A stretch of DNA of 62,520 nt, taken from contig JAUMWI010000005.1 in assembly GCA_030529725.1 (NCBI GenBank), positions 1 to 62,520 of the forward strand, in the 5' to 3' direction. The position numbers and the translations under genes are program-made. This DNA is from Eubacteriales bacterium. GTDB taxonomy: Bacteria > Bacillota > Clostridia > Oscillospirales > Oscillospiraceae. Of the stretch, positions 12,675 to 52,499 are shown piece by piece (position 1 is the stretch's first letter; every line of letters starts with the position of its first letter). Under the pieces are notes generated by a model, which saw only the letters and a program-made list of their open reading frames with translations, was not told the DNA's origin and did not search any database.

Positions 12675-12890
12675 GAGAGACGGCAAAATCTGCCGTCTCT
12701 CAGACTGTCAAAAAAACTGCCTTTGCCGGATTTTCGGGAAGGAAGATAGTGTGAAAGAAACCCAGGAGGGGTGTCTTTCACGGTTTTGATCATAAGTTTT
12801 GCAACTTTTTTGTAAGTTGCAAAACTTGCTCAGTTTGTCGAAAAGACTTTTTCGACAAACTGAGAGAGACGGCAAAATCTGCCGTCTCTC
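12675..12890 (+). repeat. Terminator-nested repeat element, copy 1
   Basis: The element (12702-12863) lies between two identical 27-bp hairpins (12675-12701 and 12864-12890; stem GAGAGACGGCA/TGCCGTCTCTC). The left hairpin keeps an A-run on its outer side, which serves as the U-tract for the minus-strand ygfK gene. The right hairpin keeps the T-run on its outer side. This is as if one bidirectional terminator had been split and duplicated. Inside are three hairpins: GTGAAAGA/TCTTTCAC, AAGTTTTGCAACTT with its complement, and CAGTTTGTCGAAAAG with its complement. The ends form an imperfect inverted repeat (TCAGACTGTCAAAAAA against TCAGTTTGTCGAAAAA). The region 12607-12908 holds nothing else I can see. 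Confidence 0.85.
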
Positions 12891-12908
12891 TTTTGTAACT
12901 CAGGGAAA

Positions 12909-15860
12909 TTATTCCTCGAACAGGTAGCTGTACTTGTCGCGGATGGTCAGGATCAGCGCCTCGATCTCAACGGGGAGATCATTGTCGCAGGAGCCGAGAT
13001 CGTATTCCTTGACCTCATCCAGACGGACGCGAACCTTGTCCTCGCCGAGGAAGAGAACACCGCGGTTGTTGCTCTCGTTCATGTCCTCAAGCGTCTGGAA
13101 GAGCGTGAACTTGTCATGGCAGGGCTCGGAGGCGTACGGGCAGAACTGCGTGCAGTTGCCGCACTCGTTGCACATCTTGTCAACGTGGACGATCTGGTGA
13201 GAGCCGTCTGCCATCTTGATGACGACGTTGGCACGGTTCGGACAGGAATCCACGCAGTTTTCGCACACGGTGGAGCACTGCAGGCAGCGCTCGCCCTCGC
13301 AGCAAGCCTGAGCAGCCATCTTCAGGATGCCCTTCTTGGCAACAGCATCGGCAACGGAAGCATCAGCCTCAACCGGGATGTCATAGACATGGGCGTGACC
13401 GGTGACGACCTGAGCGAAGCGTGCAGCATCAGCGATGCCCTCAACGACGGTCGCGGGGCCGCGATGTGCGTCACCTGCACAGTAGACGCCGGCAACATTG
13501 GTCTCAAATGCGGGACCCTTCTTCTCCATCTCGATGCCGTTGGCAGCCATGAGATCGGAGTCGACCTGCTCGCCGACGGCGGAGATCACGAGATCGCAGG
13601 GGATAGAGAACTGTTCACCGCTCTTGACGGGGCTGCGGCGGCCGGAAGCATCGGGCTCACCGAGAACCATCTTGTCGCAAAGGAGCATGCCCTTGGCCTG
13701 CTTGACGGGAGCGGCGAGCTCGACGAACTCGACACCCTCGTCGATGGCAAGCTGGAGCTCGTGCTCATCGGCGGGCATGAACTTCTTGGTGCGGCGGTAG
13801 AGGATGGTGGAATGTGCGCCCATGCGCTTGGCAACGCGGGCGGCGTCCATTGCAGTGTTGCCTGCGCCGACAACAACAACATTGCCCTTCAGGCAGGGCT
13901 TGACCTGCTTCTTCATCTTCTTCATCCACTCGATGACACCCTGGACATTGCCTTCGATGTCGAGCTTGCCGGGCTTCCATGCACCGGTCGCCATCAGAAT
14001 GTGGGTGTAACCCATCTTCTTGAGCTCTTCCACGGAGGGAGCGGGCTTGCCGAGCTTGACTTCAACATCGTACTTCATCATCAGAGCGATATCCTTGTCA
14101 ATCGCCTCGTCCGTGATACGGAAAGCGGGAATGACGTGACGGGGCACACCGCCGAGCTTGCGCTCACGCTCAAAGATCGTGACGTCGATGCCCTCGCGAC
14201 CGAGGAAGTAAGCAGCAGCAATACCGGTCGGGCCGCCGCCGATGATGGCGACCTTCTTACCCTCGACCTTCTCGGGCTTCTTGATGGAAGCCATGAGAGC
14301 GTTGTAGCCGTTCTCGGCGGCAACGAGCTTGGTGTCGCGGATATGGACAGATTCTTCATAGAAGTTACGGGAGCACTTGCCCTGGCAGCGATGTGCGCAG
14401 ATGGTGCCGGTGATGAACGGCAGGGCGTTCTTCTCGGTGATGAGCTTGAGGGCGGGGCCGTACAGACCCTTGCGGCACAGCTCGATATACTCGGGAATGT
14501 CCTGCTCAATGGGGCAGCCGCCTTTGCAGGGTGCGGTGAAGCAGTCAATCAGAGGCACCTGCTCGTTGGACTTGCGGGAGGGCATGGGCTTGATGGGCTT
14601 GAGATGGTGATAATCGCTGCGGGCAGCGGTGGCGAGATCGGAAATGGCAGCGGGATCGTTGCCGGCGAATGCCTTGTAAGGCATATCCTCGACCTTCTTG
14701 ACCATCTGATAAAGACGGTTGTAGCCGCCGGGCTTAAGGATCGTGGTGGCGCAGGTGATCGGCCAGATACCGGCTGCGAAGAGCTTGTCGCAGTTGAAGT
14801 ATTCGGCGCCGCCGGCGAAGGAAATGCGCATTTTGCCGTTAAACTGGCGGGCAATGCGGTTGCACATCTCGATGGTCAGCGGGAAGAGGCTGCGGCCGGA
14901 CATGTACATCTCTTCGTTGGGCAGCTCACCGCGGGTGGTGTCAACGGGGAAAGTATTGGAGAGCTTGAGACCGAACTCAAGACCGAGCTTGTCGGCAAGC
15001 TTCTGCAGACGCTCGAACATGGGGACGGCATCCTCCCACTGGAGATCCTCGTTGAAGTGATGCTCATCGAAAACGATGTAGTCATAGCCCATACCGTCAA
15101 GAATGGTGCGGGCGGTCTTGTAACCGAGGATGGTCGGGTTGCACTTGACAAAGGCGTGCAGGTGCTTTTCCTGCAGCAGGTAGGAGGTGATGCGCTCGAT
15201 CTCCTGCGGCGGGCAGCCGTGGAGCGTGGAGACAGTCACGCTGCGGGAAACGTTGGGGGAGATGGCAGCGATGAAGTCCTTCTCGGCGGGGAAGAGCTCC
15301 GTGAGAACCTTCTTGCACTCCTTGAACTGAGCGGTCTTGCTGGCGTCCTTCATGTTCTCGATATAGGTGTTGACCTTCTTGCCCTTGATGCCGTCAAGAT
15401 CGTAACCGACGGACATGTTGAACACGAAGCCGTCGGGATCGCCGAGACCGTAGACCTTGCTCATGACCTTCAGTGCGCACCAGGCCTTGATGTATTCGTT
15501 CTGCGCCTGTTCCACGGTCAGCTCCGTGGACCACTCCTGGTTGTAGCCCTCATCAGCGGCGAGAATGCAGGGACGGGGAACGCAGGCGGCGAGATCGGCA
15601 CCGTCCATCTTCTGAACGGTCTTGACCTCAAAGAAACGGGCGCCGGCAACATAGGAGGCAATGATGTTCTGCGCGAGCTGGCTGTTCGGGCCGGCTGCGG
15701 GGCCAAACGGGGTCTCGATGCGCTCACCGAAGATGGGGAGGCTCTTGCCGTTAGCCTTGTACTGCTTGTGGATCCCGAAGATATCGCCGCTCTGGACGTA
15801 TTCGGTGACCACCCAGTTCATTAAGGACTTAAAGGGAATGGGATACATTTTCTCAGACAT
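12909..15860 (-). CDS. ygfK: YgfK: large flavin/Fe-S oxidoreductase of the purine cluster
   Basis: 983 residues, annotated in relatives as a putative selenate reductase subunit. The N-terminal half (to about 450) is a dihydroorotate-dehydrogenase-like barrel. A GltD-like region follows with two dinucleotide folds: AIIGGGPTGIAAAYFLGREG near 535 (FAD) and VVVGAGNTAMDAARVAKRMG near 655 (NAD(P)H). The C-terminus has two ferredoxin-like Cys clusters, CSTVCENCVDSC (about 860) and CNECGNCTQFC (about 895). It is likely cytoplasmic and moves electrons in xanthine/urate reduction or a later reductive step; the real reaction is not settled. It lies 39 bp downstream of ssnA in the same operon. Its terminator hosts repeat copy 1. 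Confidence 0.93.
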   Translation of the reverse strand: MSEKMYPIPFKSLMNWVVTEYVQSGDIFGIHKQYKANGKSLPIFGERIETPFGPAAGPNSQLAQNIIASYVAGARFFEVKTVQKMDGADLAACVPRPCILAADEGYNQEWSTELTVEQAQNEYIKAWCALKVMSKVYGLGDPDGFVFNMSVGYDLDGIKGKKVNTYIENMKDASKTAQFKECKKVLTELFPAEKDFIAAISPNVSRSVTVSTLHGCPPQEIERITSYLLQEKHLHAFVKCNPTILGYKTARTILDGMGYDYIVFDEHHFNEDLQWEDAVPMFERLQKLADKLGLEFGLKLSNTFPVDTTRGELPNEEMYMSGRSLFPLTIEMCNRIARQFNGKMRISFAGGAEYFNCDKLFAAGIWPITCATTILKPGGYNRLYQMVKKVEDMPYKAFAGNDPAAISDLATAARSDYHHLKPIKPMPSRKSNEQVPLIDCFTAPCKGGCPIEQDIPEYIELCRKGLYGPALKLITEKNALPFITGTICAHRCQGKCSRNFYEESVHIRDTKLVAAENGYNALMASIKKPEKVEGKKVAIIGGGPTGIAAAYFLGREGIDVTIFERERKLGGVPRHVIPAFRITDEAIDKDIALMMKYDVEVKLGKPAPSVEELKKMGYTHILMATGAWKPGKLDIEGNVQGVIEWMKKMKKQVKPCLKGNVVVVGAGNTAMDAARVAKRMGAHSTILYRRTKKFMPADEHELQLAIDEGVEFVELAAPVKQAKGMLLCDKMVLGEPDASGRRSPVKSGEQFSIPCDLVISAVGEQVDSDLMAANGIEMEKKGPAFETNVAGVYCAGDAHRGPATVVEGIADAARFAQVVTGHAHVYDIPVEADASVADAVAKKGILKMAAQACCEGERCLQCSTVCENCVDSCPNRANVVIKMADGSHQIVHVDKMCNECGNCTQFCPYASEPCHDKFTLFQTLEDMNESNNRGVLFLGEDKVRVRLDEVKEYDLGSCDNDLPVEIEALILTIRDKYSYLFEE

Positions 15861-15899
15861 GGGGAAGTTCTCCTTTCTGTGTTGTAGGACTTGTTCAGC

Positions 15900-17243
15900 T
15901 TAATACTGTCTGTTGTTGAGGGAGCCCCAAAGCTTCTTGGCGGCTTCGAGGATGTGGGCGTTTTCAGCCTCTTCATCGATACCGACGAGCACGCGATCCT
16001 TCATCAGGAGCTTGCCGTTGGCGATGGTGGTCTGGCACTGGCGGCCGGTCATACCGAAGATCATGTGGCCGTCGATGTTCTCGTCGGAGAACGGGGTGAA
16101 CGGCTTATAATCCATGACGATGATATCGGCGGCGGCACCGGCCTTGAGCACGCCGAGGGTGGCGGGGAAGTACTTCTCGCCGATCTTGGCGTTGTTCTTA
16201 AAGAGCATATCGGTCACTTCGCACCAGCCAACGTTGGGCAGACAGTTCTGGCTACGCTGAGAGCAGAGGGCGACCTTGAGGGACTCGAGCATATCGTTGG
16301 TGTAGGCATCGGTGCCCATGCCGAGCAGGATACCGCGCTTGTAGAGCTGCAGCACCGGGCAGATGCCGATGGCGTTGCCCATATTGGACTCGGGGTTGTT
16401 GACGACCATCGTGCCGGTCTCCTTGATGATCTCCATCTCGGCGGTGTTGACGTGGATGCAGTGACCGAGGATGGTCTTGGGGCCGAGAATGCCGTGATCC
16501 TGCAGTCTCTGCACGGGACGGCGGCCGTAGTTCTGGAGGGAGTCATAGACATCGTTCATACCCTCGGAAACATGGATGTGATAACCGGTGCGGCCGTTGT
16601 TGGCTTCCACCATGCGGTCAAAGGTCTTGTCGCTGATGGTGAACAGAGCGTGTCCGCCGAACATGGCAGCGAGCATGGGATCCTTGTTCTTTTCGCATTC
16701 GGTGATAAAGTCGGCGTTTTCCTGGATGCCCTGCAGGCACTTTTCCTCGCCGTCACGGTCGGAGACCTCGTAGCACAGGCAGGAACGAAGACCCAGACGC
16801 TTGGATTCCTCTGCGATGGTGTGGAGCGTGCCGGGAATCTCACCGTAAGAGGCGTGGTGGTCAAACACGGTGGTGACGCCCTGCTTGATGGAGTCGATGT
16901 ACAGCGCGGTGGCGGAAGCCTTGGTGCCGTCCATCATCAGCTTGCGGTCGATGGCCCACCAGGTGCCGTCAAGCACTTCATAGAAGTTGGTGGGATTGTT
17001 GCCGACGATCGAAAGACCGCGGGCGAGGGCGGAATAGATGTGGGTGTGAGCGTTGATAAGCGCGGGCATGATCACGCCGCCTTTGGCGTCGATGATCTCA
17101 GCCTGGGGATACTTTGCGCGAAGCGCGGTCTCTTCGCCGACTTCGACGATCTTCGTGCCCTCGTAGGCAACAGCACCGTGTTCGTAGTAGCCTTTTCCCT
17201 CGCTGTCGCGGGTGATGAGTCTGCCGTTGGTGATAAGATTCAT
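15900..17243 (-). CDS. ssnA: Putative aminohydrolase SsnA
   Basis: 447-residue amidohydrolase of the TRZ/ATZ (guanine/cytosine-deaminase-like) group. The metal-site motif NAHTH is at residues 64-68. Other motifs are HHASYGE, GYHIHVSEG, LGHCIHV and MGTDAY (metal Asp). Family members remove amino groups from purine-like rings. SsnA is a fixed member of the uric-acid cluster and is needed with ygfK in genetic studies of gut bacteria. The start is the ATG at 17243 with SD GAGGAGG; the ORF runs further upstream but without an SD. It is the first gene of the ssnA-ygfK operon, preceded by a leader of about 160 nt with a long structured hairpin. Confidence 0.93.
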   Translation of the reverse strand: MNLITNGRLITRDSEGKGYYEHGAVAYEGTKIVEVGEETALRAKYPQAEIIDAKGGVIMPALINAHTHIYSALARGLSIVGNNPTNFYEVLDGTWWAIDRKLMMDGTKASATALYIDSIKQGVTTVFDHHASYGEIPGTLHTIAEESKRLGLRSCLCYEVSDRDGEEKCLQGIQENADFITECEKNKDPMLAAMFGGHALFTISDKTFDRMVEANNGRTGYHIHVSEGMNDVYDSLQNYGRRPVQRLQDHGILGPKTILGHCIHVNTAEMEIIKETGTMVVNNPESNMGNAIGICPVLQLYKRGILLGMGTDAYTNDMLESLKVALCSQRSQNCLPNVGWCEVTDMLFKNNAKIGEKYFPATLGVLKAGAAADIIVMDYKPFTPFSDENIDGHMIFGMTGRQCQTTIANGKLLMKDRVLVGIDEEAENAHILEAAKKLWGSLNNRQY

Positions 17244-17296
17244 AACAATACCTCCTCTGGATTTTTGGGATTGATTACCTGTCCTGACAAAAAGAA

Positions 17297-17374
17297 AAGT
17301 GCTTCCGACCACACGGACACAAACACTCTCTTTCAACGCGAGAGTGATCGTTACAGCCCGTGCGCGGAGCACTT
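17297..17374 (-). ncRNA. Structured leader RNA of ssnA-ygfK (candidate riboswitch or attenuator)
   Basis: Read on the minus strand, 78 nt fold into one long interrupted helix. P1 is AAGTGCTCCG with CGGAAGCACTT. P2 is CGCACGG with CCGTGTG (one mismatch). P3 is CACTCTC with GAGAGTG, closing a 9-nt loop. Between P2 and P3 lies an asymmetric internal loop, GCTGTAACGAT opposite TTTGTGT. A U-rich tract (TTTTCTTTTTG) follows P1 directly, as in an intrinsic terminator. It ends 53 nt before the ssnA ATG. I cannot match it to a named riboswitch; ligand control by a purine is inferred from the genes it precedes. Confidence 0.5.
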
Positions 17375-17406
17375 CGTTGCAGCCATCAATCTGAATTTAC
17401 AACATT

Positions 17407-17435
17407 ATTTTACATGAAGGGAGAACAAATCGCAA
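17407..17435 (-). promoter_or_regulatory. Promoter of ssnA-ygfK
   Basis: Minus strand: TTGCGA (17435-17430), a 17-bp spacer, TAAAAT (17412-17407). Transcription would start near 17400 and include the structured leader. Confidence 0.65.
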
Positions 17436-17516
17436 ACTTTTTTCGTCAAATAGCGTGTAGAAAAACAAAAAATATTTTTGTGCAACATGACAAAAAGTTT
17501 GTCTTTCGGAAATCCA

Positions 17517-17712
17517 ATACCCCGCGTTGGCCGTGTAGACCCCGTCAAACCTGCACATGAATTGCAGGTGGGTTGCCTCTGTCCGGTTTTACTGCTTCCA
17601 ACATCCAACCGCAAAATGCAGTCGGGAGGCCTGCAAACCACCGGAGCGTACCGGCATCCCGTATGACGAAATGTGGGTTTATATAGAGCCTATCACGCAC
17701 CACGCAGGGTAT
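17517..17712 (-). ncRNA. ssrS: 6S RNA
   Basis: A 196-nt non-coding segment on the minus strand whose ends form a 13-bp closing stem with one bulge (ATACCCTGCGTGG with CCAACGCGGGGTAT). Inside are a large central bubble region, a terminal stem (GCCTC/GAGGC and ACTGC/GCAGT) and a small hairpin in the 3' bubble (ACCTGCA/TGCAGGT). This is the order of elements known for 6S RNAs, which mimic an open promoter and bind sigma-A RNA polymerase. A -10 box TAGAAT lies 8 nt before the 5' end (the -35 is weak). AT-rich hairpins at about 17465-17503 are likely terminators. The region 17244-17755 otherwise holds only the ssnA leader and promoter. Confidence 0.8.
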
Positions 17713-17755
17713 CTTTTTCTATTCTACCGTGGCAAGAGAAAAAAATCTGTCAGAA

Positions 17756-18049
17756 TTACTGCTCCTCGTCATCGAGAATCTGCTCCATGAACTTTTCGTA
17801 CACGGTGCCCAGTTCCTCTTCGTCCATGATGGTCACGAGCATCTCTTCGCCGTTTTCCATCTCGGACTTGAGAATCACGAGACCGTATTCTTCTTCGTCT
17901 TCCTTATCCTCCTCGCCCTCTTCGATCACGGGGAAGAACGCCATATAGGTCGTGCCGTTATACTCCAAGGCATCAACGTATTCCAGTTCAATGTCGTTGC
18001 CGTCCTCGTCGGTCAGGGTAATGAAATTGGGGCCAAATTCCTCACTCAT
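17756..18049 (-). CDS. DUF1292 family protein
   Basis: 97 residues, strongly acidic and cytoplasmic. The pattern ITLTDEDGNDIELEYVDALE, then the acidic central stretch EEGEEDKEDEEEYG and the helical C-terminus, matches DUF1292, a small widely conserved Firmicutes family with no settled function. It is often found near ruvX and alaS, but here it stands alone upstream of 6S RNA on the same strand. The ATG has SD AGGAGG. No clear terminator separates it from the 6S gene, so readthrough into 6S is possible. Confidence 0.88.
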   Translation of the reverse strand: MSEEFGPNFITLTDEDGNDIELEYVDALEYNGTTYMAFFPVIEEGEEDKEDEEEYGLVILKSEMENGEEMLVTIMDEEELGTVYEKFMEQILDDEEQ

Positions 18050-18306
18050 AGGAGTACCTCCTGTTTAATAGTGTTATCAGTATACATTAGTTTGTCTGCA
18101 AATGCAAGGAAATGCAAACAGGGAAAAACAGGGGAAAAGACAGCCTGACCGATGGAAAAACAGCGGGAAAAGGGTAACAGCAGGAAAATCACAACTTTTT
18201 TGGACAAAATGCAAGTGGATTTTTCCTTGACAGCCATGTTACAATATACTCGTAATAATATGGTCTGTTATGTAAATTTTTCAGTTTAGCAAAGGAGGTG
18301 GCCGCA

Positions 18307-20892
18307 ATGAGTGAATATCGTGAGCAGCGTACCCCACGAAGAAGCGAGCGAAGAAGCGGCGCCGCAAAGAAAACCAGACTTACCATGATTATCGGAACGA
18401 TCCTTGCGATCGGACTTGCAACAAGCCTGATGTTTTTCGGCATTTTCATGATCTACGTCCACACGGCGCTTGCACCCGAACTGGACGTGGACGCATCGGG
18501 CTATACGCTCAAGCAGAGCTCCACGGTCTATTATCAGGACAGAGCAACGGGGGAGTGGAAAGAGCTGACGAAGATCCACGGCACGGAAAACCGCACGCTG
18601 GTAGATTTTGAGGATATTCCCGACCACGTCTGGCAGGCACTGGTTTCGATTGAGGATCAGCGTTTCTTTGAGCACCACGGCGTGGACTGGAAGAGCACGG
18701 CGCGTTCTGTTTTCGATATGCTGCGCGGCAGTGACTCCACGCGCGGCGGCTCGACCATTACACAGCAGGTCATCAAGAACCTGACGGACGACAACGAAGT
18801 GACGATCAAGCGAAAGGTGACGGAGATCTTCCGCGCGCTGCGTTTTGCCAAGAACTATTCGCGTGAAGAGGTTTTGGAGCTGTATCTCAACCTTGTCTAC
18901 TTCGGACACGGCGCAAACGGCATCCAGGCGGCAGCCGAGGAATACTTTGGAAAAGATGTCAGCGATCTGACCGTTGCAGAGGCGGCAAGTATTGTCGGCA
19001 TTACGCAATACCCCTCGCTGTATGATCCGTCCCGCGAGGGTACACTCAACAGCGGAAAGACCTACCGTGAGAAAAACAAGGAACGTCAGGAAACGGTTCT
19101 CTACAAAATGAACGAGCAGGGCTACCTGAGCGATGAGGAGTATCAGGCCGCGCTGAATGAAAAACTTGTGTTCGTCTGGGATGAGGATTATGTTCCTGCC
19201 GGGAGGGACGTGGAGGTCAGTGCGGCAAACACAACGTACGACTCGTTTTTTGTTGAGCAGCTGTTTAATGATGTCGTCAGTGACATGGTGGAGCAGAACG
19301 GCTACGGCAAAAAAGTTGCCCAGGATATGCTCTACACCGGCGGCTACGAGATCTACTGCACGGTCGATCCGAAGGTTCAGGAAATTGTGGAGCGTGTCTA
19401 CGCCGACCGCAGCAATCTGAATTACACCTCCGCCAAGGGCGAGCAGCTCCAGTCCGGCATGACGATTATTGACAACACCACGGGCAATGTGGTGGCGATC
19501 GCCGGCCGTATGGGTGAACGCGGCGGTGCGTTTGAGTGGAGCTACGCGGTCAATCCGCGTCCCTGCGGATCCGCGATCAAGCCGCTTGCCGTCTATGCTC
19601 CCGCCATTGATGCCGGCGTGATTACACCGGCATCTGTGATCGACGATTATCCTGTGGCGATGATGGGCAATGCCGGGGCGGAATCCATCTGGCCGGTCAA
19701 CGCTTACTCCGGCTATAAGGGCATCATTACCCTGCAGGACGCGGTTCGTTTTTCTGCCAACCCCACGGCAGTGCGTGTGCTGCAGGCACTGACACCGTCG
19801 GCATCCTACGCATTCATGACGGACAAGCTCAATTTCACGACGCTGACCGGTGACGACATTACCGCAGCCGGCGCTTTGGCACTGGGCGGCCTGAGCCGTG
19901 GTGTGACGACGCTGGAAATGGCGGCGGGTTATGCCTCCTTTGCCAATAACGGTATCTATACCACGCCGCGTACCTACACGGAGGTCAAGAACCACAACGG
20001 AAAGACCGTGCTTGAAAACAAGAGCGAATCTCACGTTGCGATGAAGGAAAGCACCGCTTATGCGATGATCGATCTTTTGAAGGGTGTTGTCAACTCTGCC
20101 GGCGGTACCGGTACGGGAGCGGCGTTCTCCGGCATGACGATCGCCGGTAAGACCGGTTCGACCAACAGCAACTGTGACCGTTACTTTGTCGGTCTTACGC
20201 CGTACTATACCGGTGCGGTCTGGGTCGGTTACGATACGCCCACGCGAATCGTAGCGTCCGGCAACCCGGCGGCAACCCTGTGGAAGAAGGTCATGAGCGA
20301 GGTTCATGCGAATCTTCCCAACAAAAACTTCAATGTGAGCGGAGGCGACATGGTGAGCGTTACGGTCTGTGCGCAAACAGGACTTCTGGCAGGACCGTCC
20401 TGTGCGTCAACGCACACAGTCGAGGTGGCAAACGGCTCTGCCCCTGTGCTTACCTGTGATGCGCACATTACCGCAACGGTCTGCCCCGAGTCCGGTCTTC
20501 TTGCGTCGGAGCATTGTCCCGGTGCATCGACAGTGTCCGTGCTTGACTTAAGTCAGTCGAACGTGTCGGAGGCGTGGGGCTATCAACGCACCATGATGTA
20601 TCAGCCGCTTACCGCTGCAGAATCGGCAACCTACGCGGCACAGCTGGAGGACGGCACGATCGCGGAAATGCCGCATGGGGCTCCCGTTACAGCGAATGAC
20701 GGCAGCGTGCGGCTGTACAGTGACCTGATGGGGCGCGGTATGTGTACCGTGCATAAGAGCGGATCTCCGACCCTGCCGTCTAATGATCCCGACACAGATA
20801 GTCAGACAGACGGGGGCGATGTGGCGAGCGAAGAAAATCAAAACGGAACTTTTCTCGACTGGCTGCTCAATACAGGCAATACGAATCATTAA
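18307..20892 (+). CDS. Class A penicillin-binding protein (PBP1A type)
   Basis: 861 residues. A basic cytoplasmic tail is followed by one membrane anchor (about 27-50). The GT51 glycosyltransferase domain has the catalytic Glu in SIEDQRFFEHH (E116), then RGGSTITQQ (147-155) and the EVLELYLNLVYFG segment. The transpeptidase domain has SAIK near 421, SAN in RFSANPT near 480, and KTG near 615. The C-terminal tail has two Cys-containing repeats (VCAQTGLLAGPSC and VCPESGLLASEHC) and a Ser/Asp-rich end. It polymerises and cross-links peptidoglycan at the outer membrane face. The ATG at 18307 was chosen because AAGGAGG lies 8-9 nt upstream. Its terminator region holds repeat copy 2. Confidence 0.95.
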   Translation: MSEYREQRTPRRSERRSGAAKKTRLTMIIGTILAIGLATSLMFFGIFMIYVHTALAPELDVDASGYTLKQSSTVYYQDRATGEWKELTKIHGTENRTLVDFEDIPDHVWQALVSIEDQRFFEHHGVDWKSTARSVFDMLRGSDSTRGGSTITQQVIKNLTDDNEVTIKRKVTEIFRALRFAKNYSREEVLELYLNLVYFGHGANGIQAAAEEYFGKDVSDLTVAEAASIVGITQYPSLYDPSREGTLNSGKTYREKNKERQETVLYKMNEQGYLSDEEYQAALNEKLVFVWDEDYVPAGRDVEVSAANTTYDSFFVEQLFNDVVSDMVEQNGYGKKVAQDMLYTGGYEIYCTVDPKVQEIVERVYADRSNLNYTSAKGEQLQSGMTIIDNTTGNVVAIAGRMGERGGAFEWSYAVNPRPCGSAIKPLAVYAPAIDAGVITPASVIDDYPVAMMGNAGAESIWPVNAYSGYKGIITLQDAVRFSANPTAVRVLQALTPSASYAFMTDKLNFTTLTGDDITAAGALALGGLSRGVTTLEMAAGYASFANNGIYTTPRTYTEVKNHNGKTVLENKSESHVAMKESTAYAMIDLLKGVVNSAGGTGTGAAFSGMTIAGKTGSTNSNCDRYFVGLTPYYTGAVWVGYDTPTRIVASGNPAATLWKKVMSEVHANLPNKNFNVSGGDMVSVTVCAQTGLLAGPSCASTHTVEVANGSAPVLTCDAHITATVCPESGLLASEHCPGASTVSVLDLSQSNVSEAWGYQRTMMYQPLTAAESATYAAQLEDGTIAEMPHGAPVTANDGSVRLYSDLMGRGMCTVHKSGSPTLPSNDPDTDSQTDGGDVASEENQNGTFLDWLLNTGNTNH

Positions 20893-20895
20893 GAC

Positions 20896-21116
20896 AAAAA
20901 GGGCGTTCAAGCGAACGCCCTTTTTGCAGATTGTCAAAAAACCTGCCTTTGCCGGATTTTCGGGAAGGAAGATAGTGTGAAAGAAACCCAGGGGGGTGTC
21001 TTTCGCGGTTTTAATCATAAGTTTTGCAACTTTTTTGAAAGTTGCAAAACTTGCTCAGCTTGTCGAAAAGACTTTTTCGACAAGCTGAAAAAGGGCGTTC
21101 AAGCGAACGCCCTTTT
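20896..21116 (+). repeat. Terminator-nested repeat element, copy 2
   Basis: The PBP gene's terminator hairpin (GGGCGTTC/GAACGCCC, 20901-20920, in A- and T-runs) is repeated exactly at 21093-21112, including the flanking A- and T-runs. The element between (about 20926-21088) has the same three hairpins as copy 1. Changes conserve pairing: the third stem is CAGCTTGTCG/CGACAAGCTG here against CAGTTTGTCG/CGACAAACTG in copy 1. It is oriented with the upstream gene and fills the gap before the convergent YtvI-like gene. Confidence 0.85.
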
Positions 21117-21117
21117 G

Positions 21118-22182: not shown

Positions 22183-22281
22183 AGGCTTCCTCTCCTCTCT
22201 GAAAAATTTACTTGCAACAAGCGCAAATTTGTGATACGCTTATCCGGAATAAGGACAAATGACCGTGTGAGGCGAACAATA

Positions 22282-23838: not shown

Positions 23839-23840
23839 CA

Positions 23841-42230: not shown

Positions 42231-42448
42231 AAAAAGAGGCAAGCATGTGCTTGCCTCTTTTTTTTGTCAAAAAAACTGTCTTTGTCGGATTTTCGGGAAG
42301 GAAGATAGTGTGAAAGAAACCCAGGAGGGGTGTCTTTCACGGTTTTGATCATAAGTTTTGCAGCTTTTTTGAAAGCTGCAAAACTTGCTCATCCTGCCGA
42401 AAAGACTTTTTCGACAGGATGAGGCAAGCATGTGCTTGCCTCTTTTTT
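42231..42448 (+). repeat. Terminator-nested repeat element, copy 3
   Basis: The etfA terminator hairpin (GAGGCAAGC/GCTTGCCTC, 42236-42257, T8) recurs exactly at 42421-42442 (T6). The element between is 42266-42420. Paired changes against copies 1 and 2 keep the second hairpin (GCAGCTT/AAGCTGC instead of GCAACTT/AAGTTGC) and the third (CATCCTG/CAGGATG). This explains most of the 340-bp gap 42215-42555; the rest is the lipoprotein's upstream region. Confidence 0.85.
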
Positions 42449-43098: not shown

Positions 43099-43220
43099 AA
43101 ACTCCGCTCCCGATTTCTTTTGCCGGAAAACGGGGGCGGAACATTTATGGGCGAAAAACGCAGAGGTTGACGAAACGAGGCGAAAACAGTATAATTTTAG
43201 TGAGAAGGGAAGTGCCTGTT

Positions 43221-43592: not shown

Positions 43593-43617
43593 CAAACGTT
43601 TTTGTGCGTGATACACT
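43589..43617 (+). promoter_or_regulatory. Promoter of the thrS T-box transcript
   Basis: Consensus TTGACA (43589-43594), a 17-bp spacer, TACACT (43612-43617). It overlaps the stop codon of the preceding gene. Confidence 0.85.
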
Positions 43618-43622
43618 ACGAA

Positions 43623-43857
43623 ACGTCAAATGGCTTTGACGGGGAAGAAACCGAGAGGCACTGCTCAGAGAGGGACGCGTTTGGTGTGAGCGTCCTGCAA
43701 AATGCTTCGGCTGTACCACCCCTGAGCCGCCCACGAAACAAGTGGGACGGGACCTCCCGTTACAGAGGACACGAGCGACGGCGCAAGCCGTAAGCAGGGT
43801 GGAACCGTGGAATACTTAGTATCCCACCCCTGATTGATCTCAGGGGTGGGATTTTTC
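43623..43857 (+). promoter_or_regulatory. T-box leader of thrS, Thr specifier ACC
   Basis: The leader shows the stem I AG-bulge region (AGAGAGGGA, 43668-43676). A probable specifier codon ACC (43715-43717, Thr) is followed by the conserved purine. The T-box itself is AGGGTGGAACCGTGG (43796-43810), in which TGGA would pair with a tRNA ending UCCA. A terminator hairpin follows (TCCCACCCCTGA/TCAGGGGTGGGA plus T5). Uncharged tRNA-Thr would stabilise the antiterminator and turn thrS on. Confidence 0.93.
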
Positions 43858-43887
43858 TTGCCCCGAAAACGAAAAGGAGAATGAACC

Positions 43888-45681: not shown

Positions 45682-45689
45682 AAAGGATA

Positions 45690-45731
45690 AAAAGATGCTC
45701 CCTGAAGATGAGATTTCGGGAGCATCTTTTT
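45690..45731 (+). terminator. Terminator of thrS
   Basis: AAAAGATGCTCCC/GGGAGCATCTTTT stem around a 14-nt loop, then T5. Confidence 0.85.
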
Positions 45732-45864
45732 GCCTTATCAGGAACAATGGAATTCAAATTCTTCTAATGTTCTTAAAGGTCTTGATGATAATTGTTAATA
45801 AAAACAAATTATACAAAAAGAAATGAGCACGTTTGTAAAGAACGACAAAAATACGCAAGACATC

Positions 45865-45985
45865 TTGCAAGTTTCAAGAAAATACGATAGAATACAGTTG
45901 CCTTGAAAGGGGCAACAACGTCATTTTGATGTATTTTGTTCATGGCGTCCGAACCTTACTTTGGTTACATAATAAGGGAGGACGC
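45865..45985 (+). promoter_or_regulatory. Promoter and structured leader of the TAXI-TRAP operon
   Basis: TTGCAA (45865-45870), a 17-bp spacer, TAGAAT (45888-45893). The leader forms a small hairpin, GTTGCC/GGCAAC (45897-45916). A larger one follows, with GCGTCC/GGACGC (45945-45950 and 45980-45985) and, inside it, CCTTA/TAAGG. I cannot assign it to a known regulatory RNA. The rest of 45682-46032 is AT-rich spacer. Confidence 0.5.
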
Positions 45986-46032
45986 TGTGCGCGAAATCAG
46001 TCAAAGGACAAAAATCAAAAAGGAGATTGAGT

Positions 46033-47019
46033 ATGAAAAAGTTTTTAGCTCTCGTCCTGTCTGTTCTCATGGTTCTCTCCCTCGTCGCTTGCGGCGGTGA
46101 AAAGACCACCGACACGGACACCACCCCCGACACCACCACTACTGAGCCTGTTGACGTCGTTCTGGCTACCGGCGGTACCTCCGGCACCTACTATGCTGTT
46201 GGCGGCGTTCTTCAGACCGTCCTCGGCGACAAGCTCACCCTCTGCAACCTGACTGTTGAATCCACCGGCGCTTCCAAGGCCAACGTCAACATGATGACCG
46301 ACGGCGAAGCTCAGATGGCTATTCTTCAGTCCGACGTTCTCAACTATGCTCACGAAGGCACCTTCACCTTCGCTGAGACCGGTGCTGAGACCTCCGCTCT
46401 GTGGGTCATGGGCATCTACAACGAGACCGTTCAGATCCTTGCCAAGCCCGGCATCAACACCGTTTCCGACCTCAAGGGCAAGACCGTCTGCGTCGGTGAC
46501 GTCGGTTCCGGTACCGAAGTCAACGCATGGCAGGTTCTCGGCGCTGTCGGCCTGACCAAGGACGACGTCAATGCTGTGAACGGCTCCTTCCAGGATGGCG
46601 TTGACCAGCTCAAGGACGGCAAGATCGATGCCGCCTTCACCGTCGCCGGTGCTCCCACCACTGCTATCGTCGACTATGCTACCACCAACGAGCTCAACCT
46701 CGTCTCCCTCTCTGCTGACGAGCTTGCCAAGGTTACCGCTGAGTATCCGTTCCTCGTTGAGGACAACCTCGCTGCCGGTACCTACACCGGTCAGGATGCT
46801 GAAGTCTGCTGCGTCGCCGTCCAGGCCGCTCTCGTTGCTGACGAGACCGTTTCCGAGGATGTCGTTTATGAGCTGGTTAAGGCTATCTATGACAATCAGG
46901 CTGATCTGACCGCTGGCCATGCCAAGTGGGGCCTGCTCTCCCTCGAGACCGCTCTTGACAACACCGCTCCCATGCATCCCGGTGCTGAGAAGTACTACAA
47001 GGAAGTCGGTGCGCTGTAA
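46033..47019 (+). CDS. TAXI family TRAP transporter solute-binding lipoprotein
   Basis: 328 residues. Signal peptide with lipobox LVAC (17-20), a Thr/Asp linker, then the TAXI domain starting VVLATGGTSGTYYAVGGVLQ. Other typical parts are GKTVCVGDVGSGTEVNA and the C-terminal NTAPMHPGAEKYYKEVGAL. It captures a carboxylate, often glutamate or aromatic acids in relatives, outside the cell for the fused permease two genes downstream. The substrate is unknown. It starts at ATG 46033 with AAGGAG. Confidence 0.93.
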   Translation: MKKFLALVLSVLMVLSLVACGGEKTTDTDTTPDTTTTEPVDVVLATGGTSGTYYAVGGVLQTVLGDKLTLCNLTVESTGASKANVNMMTDGEAQMAILQSDVLNYAHEGTFTFAETGAETSALWVMGIYNETVQILAKPGINTVSDLKGKTVCVGDVGSGTEVNAWQVLGAVGLTKDDVNAVNGSFQDGVDQLKDGKIDAAFTVAGAPTTAIVDYATTNELNLVSLSADELAKVTAEYPFLVEDNLAAGTYTGQDAEVCCVAVQAALVADETVSEDVVYELVKAIYDNQADLTAGHAKWGLLSLETALDNTAPMHPGAEKYYKEVGAL

Positions 47020-47046
47020 GACGCCCACTGAAGGTAGTGTGTTAGC

Positions 47047-47553
47047 GTGAAACCGCGTAAACGCATAACTGCAGCCGCTGCAATAATATTGATTATTGCA
47101 GCGGCTGTCCTCTTGATTCCCCGTACAGGCTACTATCTCACGCTTCGCAATCGCGATACCGGTGAGATTTATGCACGGTATCGCATGGGAGAGGGAGACC
47201 GTTTTTCCGTAACATTTACCCACTCTGTGAATAAGTATCCGTTGACGGACACTTATGAAATAGAAAACAAAACCATTTATGTGGAAGAAACCACATACTG
47301 TTCCTTTGGCGCCGGCGTCCAGACCGAGCTGAATCCCGGTGAGACTCTTACCGAGGTCTATGTTGATCGCGCGGATTATCACGGTCGGGCAATGGTGATT
47401 GGGAATATCCATCAGGATAGGACCAATGTGGGCTACATCGTCGGCACGGTCTATGATCATGTGCTGAATGTAAACGGCGAGGATGTAAGCCTGCGTGATT
47501 TGTGTGGAAGAAATTCGCCCGTCCGCTTTCATTATGAGTTCTGGCTCTTTTAA
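47047..47553 (+). CDS. DUF1850 family protein of the TRAP operon
   Basis: 168 residues. One N-terminal membrane helix (AAAAIILIIAAAVLLIP) is followed by an outer domain with TFTHSVNKYPLTDTYEIENK, the DUF1850 hallmark. These small proteins are often placed between TAXI-type binding proteins and their fused permeases, with no known role. It starts with GTG (47047), which is in frame and supported by the upstream AAGG. Confidence 0.88.
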   Translation: MKPRKRITAAAAIILIIAAAVLLIPRTGYYLTLRNRDTGEIYARYRMGEGDRFSVTFTHSVNKYPLTDTYEIENKTIYVEETTYCSFGAGVQTELNPGETLTEVYVDRADYHGRAMVIGNIHQDRTNVGYIVGTVYDHVLNVNGEDVSLRDLCGRNSPVRFHYEFWLF

Positions 47554-47595
47554 ACGGACAGGCGCTCAAAAATAAAAATAGGAGGAGACTTAAGT

Positions 47596-49737
47596 ATGGC
47601 TGAAAATGAGAACCTCAACCAGACTCCGGTTGCTGACGCTGATGTCGGCACGGCTGCTGACGTTGAGGCAATAATGAAAAAGTACGACCGTGAGTCCAAC
47701 ACCCGTTATTGGGAAGGCGTCCCCAAGACCATCCTGCGTGTGCTCACGGCAGCCTTCGGCATTTACCTGATCATTGCAAACATGTTCCTCAAGATGGACG
47801 AGCGTGCCCGCCGTCCGATCTTCCTGGGCATTGTTATCCTGCTGGTCTTTGCTTACTATCCCATAAAGAAGGGCTCCACGAAGGTTAACCACATTCCCTG
47901 GTATGATGTGGTGCTGGCGCTTGTCGGCTCCTTCTGCTACTTCTTCTATCCGATGAATCTTGAAAAGATCGTCAATGCCGGTACCCGTATCAATAAGATC
48001 TTTGCGCCCGGCGGTGTACCCCTGCTGATCGTCTTTGCCATTATCGGCACGCTGATCCTTGTTGAGTGCTGCCGCCGCGTCGTGGGTATTCCTATTATCT
48101 GCGTGTCCGGCGTGTTTGTGCTCTACGCCTTCTTCGGCGCAGGCAAGGACCTCAAGACGGTCATGTACAACCTGTTCTATACCACCACCGGCATCCTCGG
48201 CACCCCGATCGGCGTCTGCTCGACCTACATCGCGCTGTTCGTCATTTTCGGTGCGTTCCTGGAAGCCACCGGTGTTGCCAACTTCTTCATTGACTGCGCC
48301 AACGCGCTGGTCGGCTGGGCCTCCGGCGGTCCTGCGAAGGTCGCTGTCGTTTCTTCCGCTCTTTGCGGCATGGTCTCCGGTTCCTCCGTCGGTAACACCG
48401 TTACCACCGGTTCCGTCACCATTCCCATGATGAAGAAGACCGGCTATCCCCCCGAATTTGCCGGCGCCGTTGAGGCTGCTTCCTCTACCGGCGGTCAGAT
48501 CATGCCCCCGATCATGGGCGCTGCTGCGTTCCTGATGGCGGAAATGGTCGGCGTTCCTTACGGCAAGATCATTGTCCGTGCCATTCTCCCTGCCTTCCTG
48601 TACTTCCTCGGTATCTTCCTGGAAGTCCATCTCAAGGCGAAGAAGCTCGGACTCAAGGGTCTGCCCAAGGAAAATCTCCCCAAGTGGAAGATGCTCCTGC
48701 CCGAGATGTATCTCATTCTCCCGCTGGTCGTCCTGGTTTACATGATCATGGTCGGCTTCACCATGGCTACTGCTGCAGTCTATGCAACGCTGTACTGCAT
48801 TGTTGCTTCCATGGTCAGCCGTGAAGAGGGCAAGAAAAAGCTCGTTATGGCGATCCCGTTCATTCCGCTGCTGATCATGACATTCACCAGCAGAAGCTTT
48901 GATGCCGGCACGTTTATGGGTGACTATGGCTCTTTGATGTTTGTTGGTATCGCATTTGTGATCATGATCGTCAACTATGCCATCAGCAAGATCAACCGCA
49001 AGAGTCTGCCCACTGTGATCGATGCCTTTGAAAACGGCGGCAAGAACTGCCTGTCCGTCGGTATCGCCTGCGGTATGGCCGGTATTATCGCCGGTGTCGT
49101 CACGATGACCGGTCTTGGCCAGATTCTGATCGGCGCGATCGTTCGCCTTGCCAACGGCCGCCTGATCATTGCTCTCGTTCTCACCATGCTCTGCTGCATC
49201 GTTCTCGGCATGGGCGTTCCCACCACCGCGAACTACATCATCATGGCCACCACCTGCGCGCCGATCCTGGCGTCCGGTATGCACATGGAGCTGATGGCGG
49301 CACATATGTTCTGCTTCTACTTCGGCATCGTTGCGGACATCACGCCTCCCGTTGCCCTCGCTGCCTACGCAGGCTCTGCCATTGCCAAGGCACCTCCGAT
49401 GAAGACTGCGGTGAACGCGACCAAGCTTGCCATTGCGGCATTCCTTGTTCCGTACATCTTTGCGTTTAACAATGCCATGCTCTTTATCAACACCAAGCCG
49501 CTCGACGTGGTTCTGGTTATCGTGACCTCTACGATCGGTATGCTGCTCATCGCAATCAGCATGGTCGGCTACTTCATGCGTGACACGAACATGATCCTGC
49601 GTCTTGTCTGTGCTGCCGGCGGTCTGCTGCTGATCATTCCGGGCACTGTCACCGACCTGGTCGGTCTTGCCGTTCTGGTTGCGGTCTTCCTGCTCCAGAA
49701 GGCAGAGAATGCCCACGACAAGAAGGCACTTTCCTGA
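47596..49737 (+). CDS. TRAP transporter fused permease (DctQM type)
   Basis: 713 residues with about 17-18 membrane helices. The small (Q) and large (M) TRAP subunits are fused, as in TAXI systems. Characteristic parts are CGMVSGSSVGNTVTTGSVTI and SSTGGQIMPPIMGAAAFLMA in the first half, and GMGVPTTANYIIMATTCAPI and FGIVADITPPVALAAYAG in the second. It drives sodium- or proton-coupled uptake of the solute bound by the upstream lipoprotein. A strong terminator follows. Confidence 0.95.
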   Translation: MAENENLNQTPVADADVGTAADVEAIMKKYDRESNTRYWEGVPKTILRVLTAAFGIYLIIANMFLKMDERARRPIFLGIVILLVFAYYPIKKGSTKVNHIPWYDVVLALVGSFCYFFYPMNLEKIVNAGTRINKIFAPGGVPLLIVFAIIGTLILVECCRRVVGIPIICVSGVFVLYAFFGAGKDLKTVMYNLFYTTTGILGTPIGVCSTYIALFVIFGAFLEATGVANFFIDCANALVGWASGGPAKVAVVSSALCGMVSGSSVGNTVTTGSVTIPMMKKTGYPPEFAGAVEAASSTGGQIMPPIMGAAAFLMAEMVGVPYGKIIVRAILPAFLYFLGIFLEVHLKAKKLGLKGLPKENLPKWKMLLPEMYLILPLVVLVYMIMVGFTMATAAVYATLYCIVASMVSREEGKKKLVMAIPFIPLLIMTFTSRSFDAGTFMGDYGSLMFVGIAFVIMIVNYAISKINRKSLPTVIDAFENGGKNCLSVGIACGMAGIIAGVVTMTGLGQILIGAIVRLANGRLIIALVLTMLCCIVLGMGVPTTANYIIMATTCAPILASGMHMELMAAHMFCFYFGIVADITPPVALAAYAGSAIAKAPPMKTAVNATKLAIAAFLVPYIFAFNNAMLFINTKPLDVVLVIVTSTIGMLLIAISMVGYFMRDTNMILRLVCAAGGLLLIIPGTVTDLVGLAVLVAVFLLQKAENAHDKKALS

Positions 49738-49749
49738 CCGTATCTATTC

Positions 49750-49787
49750 AAAAAAGAACGCTTCCTTCGGGAAGCGTTCTTTTTTTG
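49750..49787 (+). terminator. Terminator of the TRAP operon
   Basis: GAACGCTTCC/GGAAGCGTTC stem flanked by an A6-run and a T7-run. Confidence 0.9.
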
Positions 49788-49827
49788 CGTTTCTTTCGAT
49801 AGGATAGGGGAGAAGGAGCGTGTTATT

Positions 49828-50571
49828 ATGCCGAAAATATACCTTTCTCCCTCCACACAGGAGTCAAATCCTTACATTACCGGCAGCGGCAGTGAGGAGT
49901 ATAATATGAATCTGCTGGCAGACGAGTTGGAGCCGTACCTTTTCTCCAATGCTATTTCCTTTGTCCGCAACACACCGGACATGACGGCGGCGTCCTCCAT
50001 TGCCCAGGCGAACAGCATTGGCGGCTTTGACTTCTACCTTGCCCTCCACTCCAATGCAGCAGGGGCAGGAAATGAGGGAAACGTCCGCGGAGTGATTGCA
50101 TTTTATTATCCCACAAGCGCCAATGGCAAGCGCGCCGCGGAGTTGTTTGCCGCACGGCTGCGCGAGGTCTACCCACTGCCGAATCTCGTGACTACAGTAT
50201 CCACAACATCGCTCGGCGAGGTGCGCCGTCCCAATTTTCCGGCAAATTTGATTGAGATCGGCTACCATGATAACTACGAGGATGCTCTTTGGATCGAAAA
50301 CAACCGCGATGCCATCGCGCAGGCGCTGGCACGAGGATTGACAGACTATTTCGGCCTGCCGTTTATCTATCCGACGACGCAGCGCATCGGGGTGGTGCAG
50401 ACCAGCGGCTCGCCGCTTCTTTTGCGTGACTATCCGGGTACAAACGGGGCCGTCCTTGCGCAGATACCAAACGGGGCGAGTGTTATGATCTACGGCGAGT
50501 GGCAGGGGTGGTACACCGTGCGCTATGAAGGGCAGCTCGGCTATGCAGCGCAGGCGTATATCCAAGCGTGA
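49828..50571 (+). CDS. N-acetylmuramoyl-L-alanine amidase with SH3-like domain
   Basis: 247 residues. An Amidase_3 domain (about 1-180) has the ALHSN motif near 70 and IEIGYHDN near 147. A C-terminal SH3b domain follows (LLRDYPGTNGAVLAQIPNGA, about 192-247). No signal peptide is present, as in phage-type or mother-cell-released amidases. The first zinc-binding position reads LSPSTQESN where a histidine would be expected in classic amidases, so activity needs care. It would cut the amide bond between MurNAc and L-Ala. It is a single-gene unit. Confidence 0.85.
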   Translation: MPKIYLSPSTQESNPYITGSGSEEYNMNLLADELEPYLFSNAISFVRNTPDMTAASSIAQANSIGGFDFYLALHSNAAGAGNEGNVRGVIAFYYPTSANGKRAAELFAARLREVYPLPNLVTTVSTTSLGEVRRPNFPANLIEIGYHDNYEDALWIENNRDAIAQALARGLTDYFGLPFIYPTTQRIGVVQTSGSPLLLRDYPGTNGAVLAQIPNGASVMIYGEWQGWYTVRYEGQLGYAAQAYIQA

Positions 50572-50617
50572 TTCCGCCCTCTATCTTTCCATTTTGCTCG
50601 GAACCCCCCATTTTCCC

Positions 50618-50647
50618 TTGACAGTTGACCATAAAATGGGGTAATAT
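50618..50647 (+). promoter_or_regulatory. Promoter of rny
   Basis: TTGACA (50618-50623), an 18-bp spacer, TAATAT (50642-50647). Confidence 0.65.
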
Positions 50648-50745
50648 AAACAATGGATTTATGGAGGGGAGAAAAAGGGGTTCTCCCGTTTGTGATTCAA
50701 AATACCCATTATATAGATACAAAACATACGAAATAGGAGGAATCC

Positions 50746-52290
50746 ATGCTCAAAACTATCATCATTGCTGTGGTAGCGTTGGGAATTGGTATTCTTCTCG
50801 GTATTGTCCTGCAAAAGAGCAAAGAAAAAAAGGCTGAAATGACGATCGCTGACGCCGAGGCCAAGGCACTGCAGATCGAAAATGATGCACATAAGCGCGC
50901 GGAAAGCAAGACGAAGGAAATGCTTTTGGAGGCAAAAGAGGAAATTTTGCGCTCCAGAAATGAATACGAGAAGGAAGCCAAGGAACGCCGCATCGAACAG
51001 CAAAAGCAGGAGCGCCGTCTGCAGCAGAAGGAAGAAAACATCGACCGCAAGACGGAAACGCTTGAAAAGCGCGAAGAGGCGCTGAACCAGAAGCATGCAG
51101 CTCTGGACAAAGAGAACGAAGAAATCAAGATCATCAAGCGCAGCCAGACCGAAATGCTGGAGCGGATCTCCGGTTTTACGGCGGAAGAAGCAAAGAAATA
51201 CCTGATCGACCAGGTCGAGATGGAAGTGACGCATGAAACCGCGCTTAAGATTAAGGAGATCGAACAGCGTGCGAAGGAGGAGTCCGATCAGCGTGCACGC
51301 GAGATCGTTGCCTCTGCCATTCAGCGCTGTGCTGCTGATCATGTCGCGGAAATCACCGTCAGTGTGGTACCCCTGCCCAATGACGAGATGAAAGGCCGCA
51401 TCATTGGCCGCGAAGGCCGCAATATCCGTACCATCGAAACGATGACCGGTGTCGATCTTATTATCGACGATACCCCTGAAGCGATCACCGTTTCCTGCTT
51501 TGAGCCGGTTCGCCGCGAAGTGGCGAGACTTGCGCTGGAAAAGCTGATTGCTGACGGACGCATTCACCCCACCCACATCGAAGAGATGGTGGCGAAGGCT
51601 CGCCGCGAGGTGGATGCTGTCATTAAGTCTGAGGGTGAACGTGCCATTCTGGAAACCGGTGTGCGCGGCATTCACCCGGAGCTTGTTAAGCTTCTCGGCC
51701 GTCTGCATTATCGCACGAGCTACGGTCAGAATGTCCTGCAGCATTCCATTGAAGTGTCCCACCTTGCCGGCATGATGGCAGCGGATCTCGGTGCCGATGT
51801 CCAGGCTGCCAAGCGTGCAGGTCTGCTGCACGATATCGGCAAGTCGATCGACCATGAGATGGAAGGCACCCATGTTGCACTCGGTGTCGAGTTCCTGCGA
51901 AAGTATCACGAGAAGGACGACATTATCCATGCCGTTCAGGCACATCATAACGATGTGGAGCCGCAGACTATCGTTGCCTGTATCGTGCAGGCTGCTGATG
52001 CGATCTCTGCCGCCCGCCCCGGTGCCCGCCGCGAAAATCTTGAGAACTACATCAAGCGTCTTGAGCAGCTCGAAGAGATTACCGGCAGTTATCCCGGCGT
52101 CGACAAGGCTTACGCGATTCAGGCCGGCCGTGAAGTACGCGTCATGGTCAAGCCTGAGCAGGTCAGTGAAGACCAGATGGTCATCCTCGCCCGCGAGCTT
52201 GCCAAAAAGATCGAGGCAGAGATGGAATATCCCGGCCAGATCAAGGTTCATGTTCTGCGTGAGACCACCGCAGTTGAATATGCGAAGTAA
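50746..52290 (+). CDS. rny: Ribonuclease Y
   Basis: 514 residues, close to the standard 520. N-terminal membrane anchor ([18 protein letters not shown]), a long coiled coil (about 25-150), a KH domain with [13 protein letters not shown] near 218, and an HD domain with [10 protein letters not shown] near 360. This membrane-bound endonuclease starts mRNA turnover in Firmicutes. The neighbouring ymdB gene is the usual partner. Its terminator holds repeat copy 4. Confidence 0.96.
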
Positions 52291-52300
52291 ACAAGTAATA

Positions 52301-52499
52301 AAAAAGAACCGCTTCGGCGGTTCTTTTTTGCTGTCAGTTAAAATTTCGGGAAGGAAGATAGTGTGAAAAAAACCCAGGAGGGGTGTCTTTCACGATTTTG
52401 AACATAAGTTTTGCAGCTTTCCCAAAAGCTGCAAAACTTGCTCAGCTTGCCGAAAAAGCTTTTTCGACAAGCTGAGAACCGCTTCGGCGGTTCTTTTTT
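52301..52499 (+). repeat. Terminator-nested repeat element, copy 4 (left end degenerate)
   Basis: The rny terminator hairpin (GAACCGC/GCGGTTC, 52306-52323, T6) is repeated exactly at 52476-52493 (T6). The element between is 52330-52475 and lacks part of the left end seen in the other copies. It still carries the GTGAAAAAAACCCAGGAGGG segment and the two large hairpins, with altered loops (GCAGCTTTCCCAAAAGCTGC). The region 52291-52594 holds only this element and the ymdB promoter. Confidence 0.8.

Follow-up and report, generated by a model that had tools for sequence, protein, structure and literature searches.

Four repeats set between duplicated hairpins

The window, that is, the whole stretch of 62,520 nucleotides analysed here, is contig 48 (JAUMWI010000005.1) of the 1.60 Mb draft genome of a Eubacteriales bacterium of the Oscillospiraceae (assembly GCA_030529725.1). 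It contains four copies of a repeat of 145-163 bp, the subject of this report; to judge from sequence comparison, these are very probably miniature inverted-repeat transposable elements (MITEs) that depend, for movement in trans, on the transposases of a single clade within the IS1182 family of insertion sequences (ISs), with ends CAGnCTGTC... The common core, ATTTTCGGGAAGGAAGATAG, is found exactly at 12730, 20956 and 42289 and with one mismatch at 52342, always on the + strand, and has no match in 100 shuffled versions of the window sequence. An exact duplicate of the local hairpin flanks each of the four copies (28, 29, 28 and 25 bp), and the four target hairpins are, by eye, unrelated in sequence to each other (Table 1). 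A first-pass annotation, made from the letters of the window, had described such a four-copy family with a common core, each copy lying between two copies of a terminator whose sequence changes from locus to locus, and this description holds.

Table 1. Positions of the four MITE copies of the window and of the hairpins that flank them
Copy	Feature	Positions	Strand	Basis or remark
1	Left target hairpin, 28 bp	12674..12701	+	Exact duplicate of 12863-12890
1	MITE; left end AGACTGTCAAAAA, right-end hairpin closing with TTTTTCGACAAACTG	12702..12862	+	RNA fold z -6.6
1	Conserved core with covarying hairpin P2	12735..12781	+	Best-conserved interior stretch between genera; covariation
1	Right target hairpin	12863..12890	+	Duplicate of left hairpin
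2	Left target hairpin, 29 bp	20896..20924	+	Exact duplicate
2	MITE	20925..21087	+	Alignments
2	Right target hairpin	21088..21116	+	Exact duplicate
3	Left target hairpin with T tract, 28 bp	42236..42263	+	Exact duplicate
3	MITE, degenerate left end	42264..42420	+	Alignments
3	Right target hairpin	42421..42448	+	Duplicate; terminator-like, 42421-42442
4	Left target hairpin, 25 bp	52305..52329	+	Duplicate; terminator-like on - strand, 52329-52300
4	MITE, degenerate left end	52330..52474	+	Alignments; congener L280 site without element
4	Right target hairpin	52475..52499	+	Duplicate; terminator-like, 52474-52495

Alignments define the ends of the element as CAGnCTGTC(A/G)A(A/T)AAA, the left one being degenerate in window copies 3 and 4, and show that the right end forms a hairpin, the outer arm of which repeats the left end in inverted form. 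Over 26 aligned elements, the mean column identity amounts to 0.81 in the left end, 0.51 in the spacer, 0.86 in the core, 0.70 in the linker, which includes a second hairpin, and 0.90 in the right-end hairpin.

The duplication of hairpins was compared with chance in the genome of the window and in related ones (genomes and loci are given below by our handles, G and L). Excluded beforehand were four loci located at an edge or duplicating another place, one locus containing a run of N, matches that were short or weak, and elements at contig ends. A near-exact stretch of score at least 18 is common to the two flanks in 35 of 75 rows and in 1 of 397 random pairings. Among these 35 rows, two match again, on the other strand, an element already counted (window copy 4, L125), two come from a single tandem array (L070), and the duplicated stretch of L101 is barely a hairpin; once the four duplicate or compound rows are removed and a stem is required, 33 of 71 rows keep the duplication. 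Furthermore, nine or more stem pairs are present in 26 of 30 MITE duplications, as opposed to none of 189 control 28-mers.

The repeat thus has the features of a MITE: it is short, multicopy (at least 19 insertions in the genome) and devoid of a transposase gene; its terminal inverted repeats are common to ISs of the IS1182 family, though hardly ever in the same genome; and its target-site duplication is hairpin-sized in the 35 rows mentioned, none being seen in the rest. The initial suggestion of a MITE-like element was apt.

Insertion sequences with the same ends

A search of 400 genomes of the bacterial family for IS1182-family transposases (NF033551) gave 34 that match at E <= 1e-90. Among the loci examined, a pair of CAG-type ends stands at IS distance in L132, L152, L154, L155, L156, L158, L160, L161, L163 and L165, while L173 has a variant of these ends. 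Where both flanks of such ISs are available, the hairpin is duplicated in six of nine (with mismatches in L165); the hairpins of the two sides differ in L152 and L163, and L158 has a hairpin on one side (by eye). One of these elements, L156, comes from the genus of the window, and Oscillibacter sp. ER4 (L199) has a protein identical to that of this element. The transposases of L156 and L160 score 393.8 and 385.9 bits with NF033551 (cut-off 270) and also carry PF13751, PF05598 and PF01609. In a tree of 29 transposases, from which L152 and L155 are absent, the eight CAG-ended ones form one group (100/100), L153, whose ends were not seen, among them; this clade stands apart from the transposases of elements with ends TTGACAAA and GCAAAA.

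Named genomes were also scanned; of 206 relatives the best 80 were kept, and 72 of these were examined, the eight cut at contig ends being left out. A loose test recognises a pair of CAG-type ends in 63 of the 72, with doubt attached to L216, L233, L235 and L254, and no such pair in the other nine. The whole hairpin is duplicated at both ends in 43 of these 63 ISs, and in none of 500 random pairings; since some of the 63 places are CAG-ended loci already mentioned (e.g., L199 = L156), this count and the previous one are not additive. In the complete chromosome of Chakrabartyella piscis, all nine copies examined show the duplication, with nine different hairpins, whose perfect stems measure 8-13 bp in seven cases, as opposed to 4 bp in L224 and 5 bp in L225.

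The 43 duplications measure 17-41 bp (median 29). Unpaired bases outside the stem have a median of 0 on each side and total at most four in 41 of the 43; nine or more stem pairs occur in 36 of them, as opposed to 0/189 in the control 28-mers. Among the 20 ISs without duplication (L247 and L272 have no right flank), 16 carry, no more than 45 bp from an end, a perfect stem of 8 bp or longer (control 3/252), so that a hairpin stands beside an end in 59 of the 63. Eight of these 16 have stems on both sides, which might be a product of recombination between copies. In the other IS1182 clades, nine loci were run, L168 without a right flank, and neither a duplication (0/8 evaluable) nor a stem longer than 5 bp was found. 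The MITEs and these ISs thus have the same ends and the same kind of hairpin targets, with duplications ending at or a few bases from the stem ends; the ISs, in addition, form one clade.

Hairpins that are diverged or different between the two sides were seen at the MITEs L041, L116, L122 and L108 and at the ISs L152, L163, L200, L202 and L203, and some diverged pairs keep their pairing in both copies. Such unequal hairpins could record recombination between copies or the separate evolution of two terminators.

Distribution of the MITE

Among 60 relatives searched, four match, including the genome of the window, G013 doing so over 25 bases only. When 300 genomes of the bacterial family were searched, 46 matched, again including the own genome, in 26 of 106 genera; about 22 of these 26 genera reach E <= 1e-8, and the weakest matches are shorter than 30 bases. 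The host range appears to comprise many genera of the Oscillospiraceae. In G022, there are about a dozen MITE copies, most of them nearly identical, and four pairs of contig ends carry the same hairpin, of 24, 26, 28 and 34 bp (by eye). Counts of the end sequence with one mismatch allowed, compared with those of the reversed pattern, were 185 vs 4 in G136, 101 vs 5 in G255 and 104 vs 3 in G172; these three genomes may hold about 50-90 elements with such ends, whatever their interior.

A search across the class found matches in 17 of 391 genomes, own included, and most weak matches have only the end hairpin in common (19 loci examined, three of them cut at an edge and not readable). L198, from another family of the same order, has the core, the ends and the duplicated hairpin. 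Matches in phage and plasmid collections are confined to two unannotated phage records and one plasmid record, and no transposase is annotated in the one region of these collections that was read.

Elements with similar ends, duplicated or near-duplicated hairpins and unrelated interiors were also seen in other families of the class (L191, L193); the habit of targeting hairpins may thus reach beyond this bacterial family.

A variant MITE, L105, L114, L115 and L117 (G203, G255, G136), combines the same ends with a different core (CAGAGCAGCGGGGG... plus a GC-rich hairpin). At L197 (G060), a GC-rich repeat stretch contains core-like repeats that lack the usual ends. In turn, L070 (G164) and L062 (G317) are tandem MITE arrays in which units have hairpins in common (by eye), as might be expected if an element had inserted at a hairpin already duplicated by another.

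Origin of the duplicated hairpins

The contrast between the 43 of 63 CAG-ended ISs with hairpin duplication and the 0/8 of other clades indicates that the duplication is a target-site duplication set by the hairpin. In the mechanism that we propose, a DDE transposase would recognise a hairpin, often a terminator, in the form of an extruded cruciform, of single-stranded DNA or of a simple inverted repeat; each 3' end of the element would be joined to one of the two 5' feet of the hairpin, which gap repair would then copy. Strand transfers at the feet followed by gap repair would make the target duplication as long as the hairpin, instead of giving it a fixed stagger, and, the hairpin being copied, the upstream gene would keep an intact terminator.

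It could be argued that staggered cuts of variable length occur anywhere and that only insertions preserving a terminator survive selection. The many copies found at terminator-like hairpins, the possible cost of a broken terminator and the variable length of the IS duplications agree with this account. However, survival alone would also allow longer duplications with scattered ends, when the observed ends fall on stem ends, and the other IS1182 clades show no such pattern; we consider it improbable. Even less credit can be given to an element that inserts beside a terminator and gains the second hairpin afterwards, through gene conversion or by recruiting another terminator. The different hairpins on the two sides of L041, L116, L122, L152 and L163 (by eye) and the eight ISs that lack a duplication but carry a stem on either side would fit such a history; nevertheless, different hairpins are expected from recombination between copies too, and both the duplicates at the two ends of 9/9 copies examined in one chromosome and the four contig-end pairs of recent G022 copies (by eye) point to duplication at insertion. 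Least probable is a retro-element or group IIC-like element reaching terminators via RNA: group IIC introns favour terminators and the element folds strongly as RNA, but its inverted terminal repeats are those of DDE-transposase ISs and no group II family figures among the four Rfam matches of the window; the retro-type nature envisaged in the first-pass annotation finds no support.

Copies in the own genome and the partner of the MITE

The copies of the own genome were counted by eye from 26 alignments to copy 3, some of which are reverse matches of palindromes. There are 15 copies with both flanks, which together with the contig-end halves make at least 19 insertions; this number falls short of the hundreds per genome that had been extrapolated from the density in the window. 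The hairpin is duplicated in 8 of 17 evaluable insertions, namely window copies 1-4, L015 and L016, as found by the duplication test, and two copies split between contig ends (L021 with L023; L020 with L025), with one mismatch each (by eye); L022 and L024 offer one side only. The initial proposal was to be abandoned if most copies lacked duplicated terminators, or if the element was an IS-derived MITE with ordinary short target duplications. Copies with duplicated hairpins are, at 8/17, not the majority, and the element is a MITE of IS type; its target duplications, on the other hand, are not the ordinary short ones.

Several observations weigh against MITEs moved in trans by the CAG-ended IS1182 clade. 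Nine of the 17 evaluable copies of the own genome show no hairpin duplication, some having possible duplications of 6-10 bp (by eye, 6 bp at L013, 7 bp at L017, at least 8 bp at L010 and 10 bp at L019) and others no duplication by eye (L009, L011, L012, L014, L018), as is also the case, by eye, of the Vescimonas fastidiosa copy of the plasmid record (L178). Copies of this kind would be old, later altered, or inserted in other sites. Moreover, the own genome shows no IS with CAG ends, and we therefore infer the partner of its MITE copies. CAG-ended ISs were seen in ten genomes, eight of which, judged by handle number, lay within the MITE search of 300, and only G320 is also among the 46 positive for the MITE; IS1182 elements of any kind at E <= 1e-20 are present in 12 of 37 genomes among these 46; and G022 shows neither an IS1182 at that threshold nor a CAG-ended IS. 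Draft genomes often lack repeats. With so little co-residence, the link between MITE and IS rests on the ends and the target habit. Finally, the MITE core was not recovered in the ISs: model R1 scored no more than 17.4 bits (E 0.0012) over 57 IS loci, and its top matches fell at IS ends.

Other partners were considered. The ends of ISAs1 elements begin with CAG; this family was rejected, its transposase being found in 1 of 37 genomes among the 46 MITE-positive ones. The IS1182 of the own genome, L040, was also discarded, as it has ends GGAYCTGTTGACAAA and belongs to a clade without hairpin duplication. Its locus (G000:C39) is a nest of ISs, where the IS1182 with these ends lies inside another transposase gene and adjoins an IS256-like one (the last two by eye). 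Pairing of ends in whole genomes as a way to autonomous copies gave, by eye, no pair at 1-2 kb in G255, among the matches listed.

The conserved core

Covariation was evaluated in 26 of 44 aligned elements, near-copies, the variant core group (L105, L114, L115, L117) and some others being left out. Within the core hairpin, 98.4% of cells are paired, and 6 of 12 pairs show changes on both sides. Double changes in the two hairpins that were counted total 49, vs 10.8 in shuffles and at most 6 with partners slid, while further pair types are not unusual (19 vs 17.0, reached by 44 of 500 shuffles); one pair of the core hairpin is G-U in 8 of the 26 elements. Given that this hairpin is a palindrome in DNA too, and that related sequences can surpass shuffles of this kind in the absence of any structure, the covariation is no proof of RNA, and a role of the core as RNA has a modest chance. 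No Rfam family at cut-off covers any repeat of the window, where there are four Rfam matches, and permissive thresholds applied to L001 and L009 gave nothing credible on the element.

There are about even chances for a more general picture, in which a clade of DDE transposases would pick its targets by shape, cutting at both feet of a hairpin whatever its sequence, so that the target duplication reads out the fold of the target and terminators are copied intact; the conserved, covarying core of the MITE riding on this system might act as a functional RNA, or else as a structural signal, which passes from one terminator to the next and in this way comes to lie at the 3' ends of many transcripts.

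Genomic context and orientation

In all four window copies, the upstream gene is co-directional with the element (by eye), as the first-pass annotation had noted; the orientation does not extend to a general rule. L088 points against the gene whose terminator it shares (by eye), and automatic calling in 33 hairpin copies gave 9 >E>, 7 >E<, 2 <E<, 1 <E> and 14 unsure, with a procedure that was correct on 376 of 516 held-out pieces (73%). Such a weak count leaves room for a weak bias, not for a rule.

Judging from the translations, we take copy 3 to follow EtfA, and copy 4 to follow RNase Y and to precede a YmdB-like gene. The gene that precedes copy 4 was found in 17 of the 18 genus members searched, the own genome being one of them. 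In L280, its best match, this gene precedes a single hairpin, whose sequence differs from that in the window, and next comes the same downstream gene, with no element in between; this is an arrangement without insertion, not an identical empty site.

Elsewhere in the window, positions 5112-5180 (+) match the Salmonella sRNA STnc40 in Rfam (46.4 vs a cut-off of 45), which is unexpected here and probably a chance hairpin. A T-box leader-like match at about 43627-43834 (+) (L001:2882-3089), with 82.4 bits, lies below its cut-off of 93 and ends near a strong terminator-like hairpin at 43821-43852.

Comparison with known systems

The first-pass annotation had envisaged a new class of element. The ends and the target habit belong instead to a clade of IS1182-family elements present in the same bacterial family, one of them (L156) in the same genus. 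ISfinder tables list long, variable direct repeats for the IS1182 family. Group IIC introns are retro-elements without terminal inverted repeats that prefer terminators, and we know of no hairpin duplication caused by them; the preference is common to the elements described here, which differ by their terminal inverted repeats and by the duplication of the hairpin.

In the literature on IS1182/IS1272 targets or on MITEs at terminators or of Oscillospira-type hosts that was within reach, most subscription papers lying outside it, no report of whole-hairpin duplication was found. As far as this literature goes, what is new is an IS1182-type MITE family whose clade duplicates hairpins, and with a core not found described there. 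Dozens of natural insertions whose target duplication equals the hairpin, in many hosts and nine of them in one complete chromosome, make structure-dependent target choice directly testable with hairpins of chosen length. Furthermore, they illustrate that mobile elements can settle at terminators without destroying them.

In Methanosarcina acetivorans, MITEs of ISMac2, of the IS1182 family, measure 160 and 169 bp and exist in 14 and 7 copies, with repeat sizes given as 26/4 and 25/0, if we interpret the columns rightly (PMC3852290). These are also short non-autonomous IS1182-family derivatives, for which the accessible part of that source mentions no hairpin-sized duplication. REP palindromes, in turn, are targets of ISs (PMC1525189, in the part available); such ISs are also aimed at extragenic palindromes, those of one repeat family there vs unrelated hairpins here.

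According to the portions of PMC5678879 and PMC4923244 at our disposal, some IS1182 members target palindromes, and IS1272/TnSha1, IS1182-family elements of staphylococci, have hairpin targets of unrelated sequence; five of seven TnSha1 targets are confirmed as terminators and the target structures of IS1272 measure 21-38 bp. From hairpin-losing insertions, the IS1272 papers proposed a hairpin-dependent transposition whose mechanism was left open; whole-hairpin duplication is drawn as a hypothetical pathway b, although IS1272 itself loses the hairpin (PMC5678879). As depicted in that portion, the strand transfer at the 5' feet with gap repair proposed here is this pathway b. The elements described in this work thus resemble IS1272/TnSha1 in their transposase family and in their hairpin targets of unrelated sequence, but, unlike IS1272, where the hairpin is deleted or replaced with no target duplication, they keep the hairpin and duplicate it.

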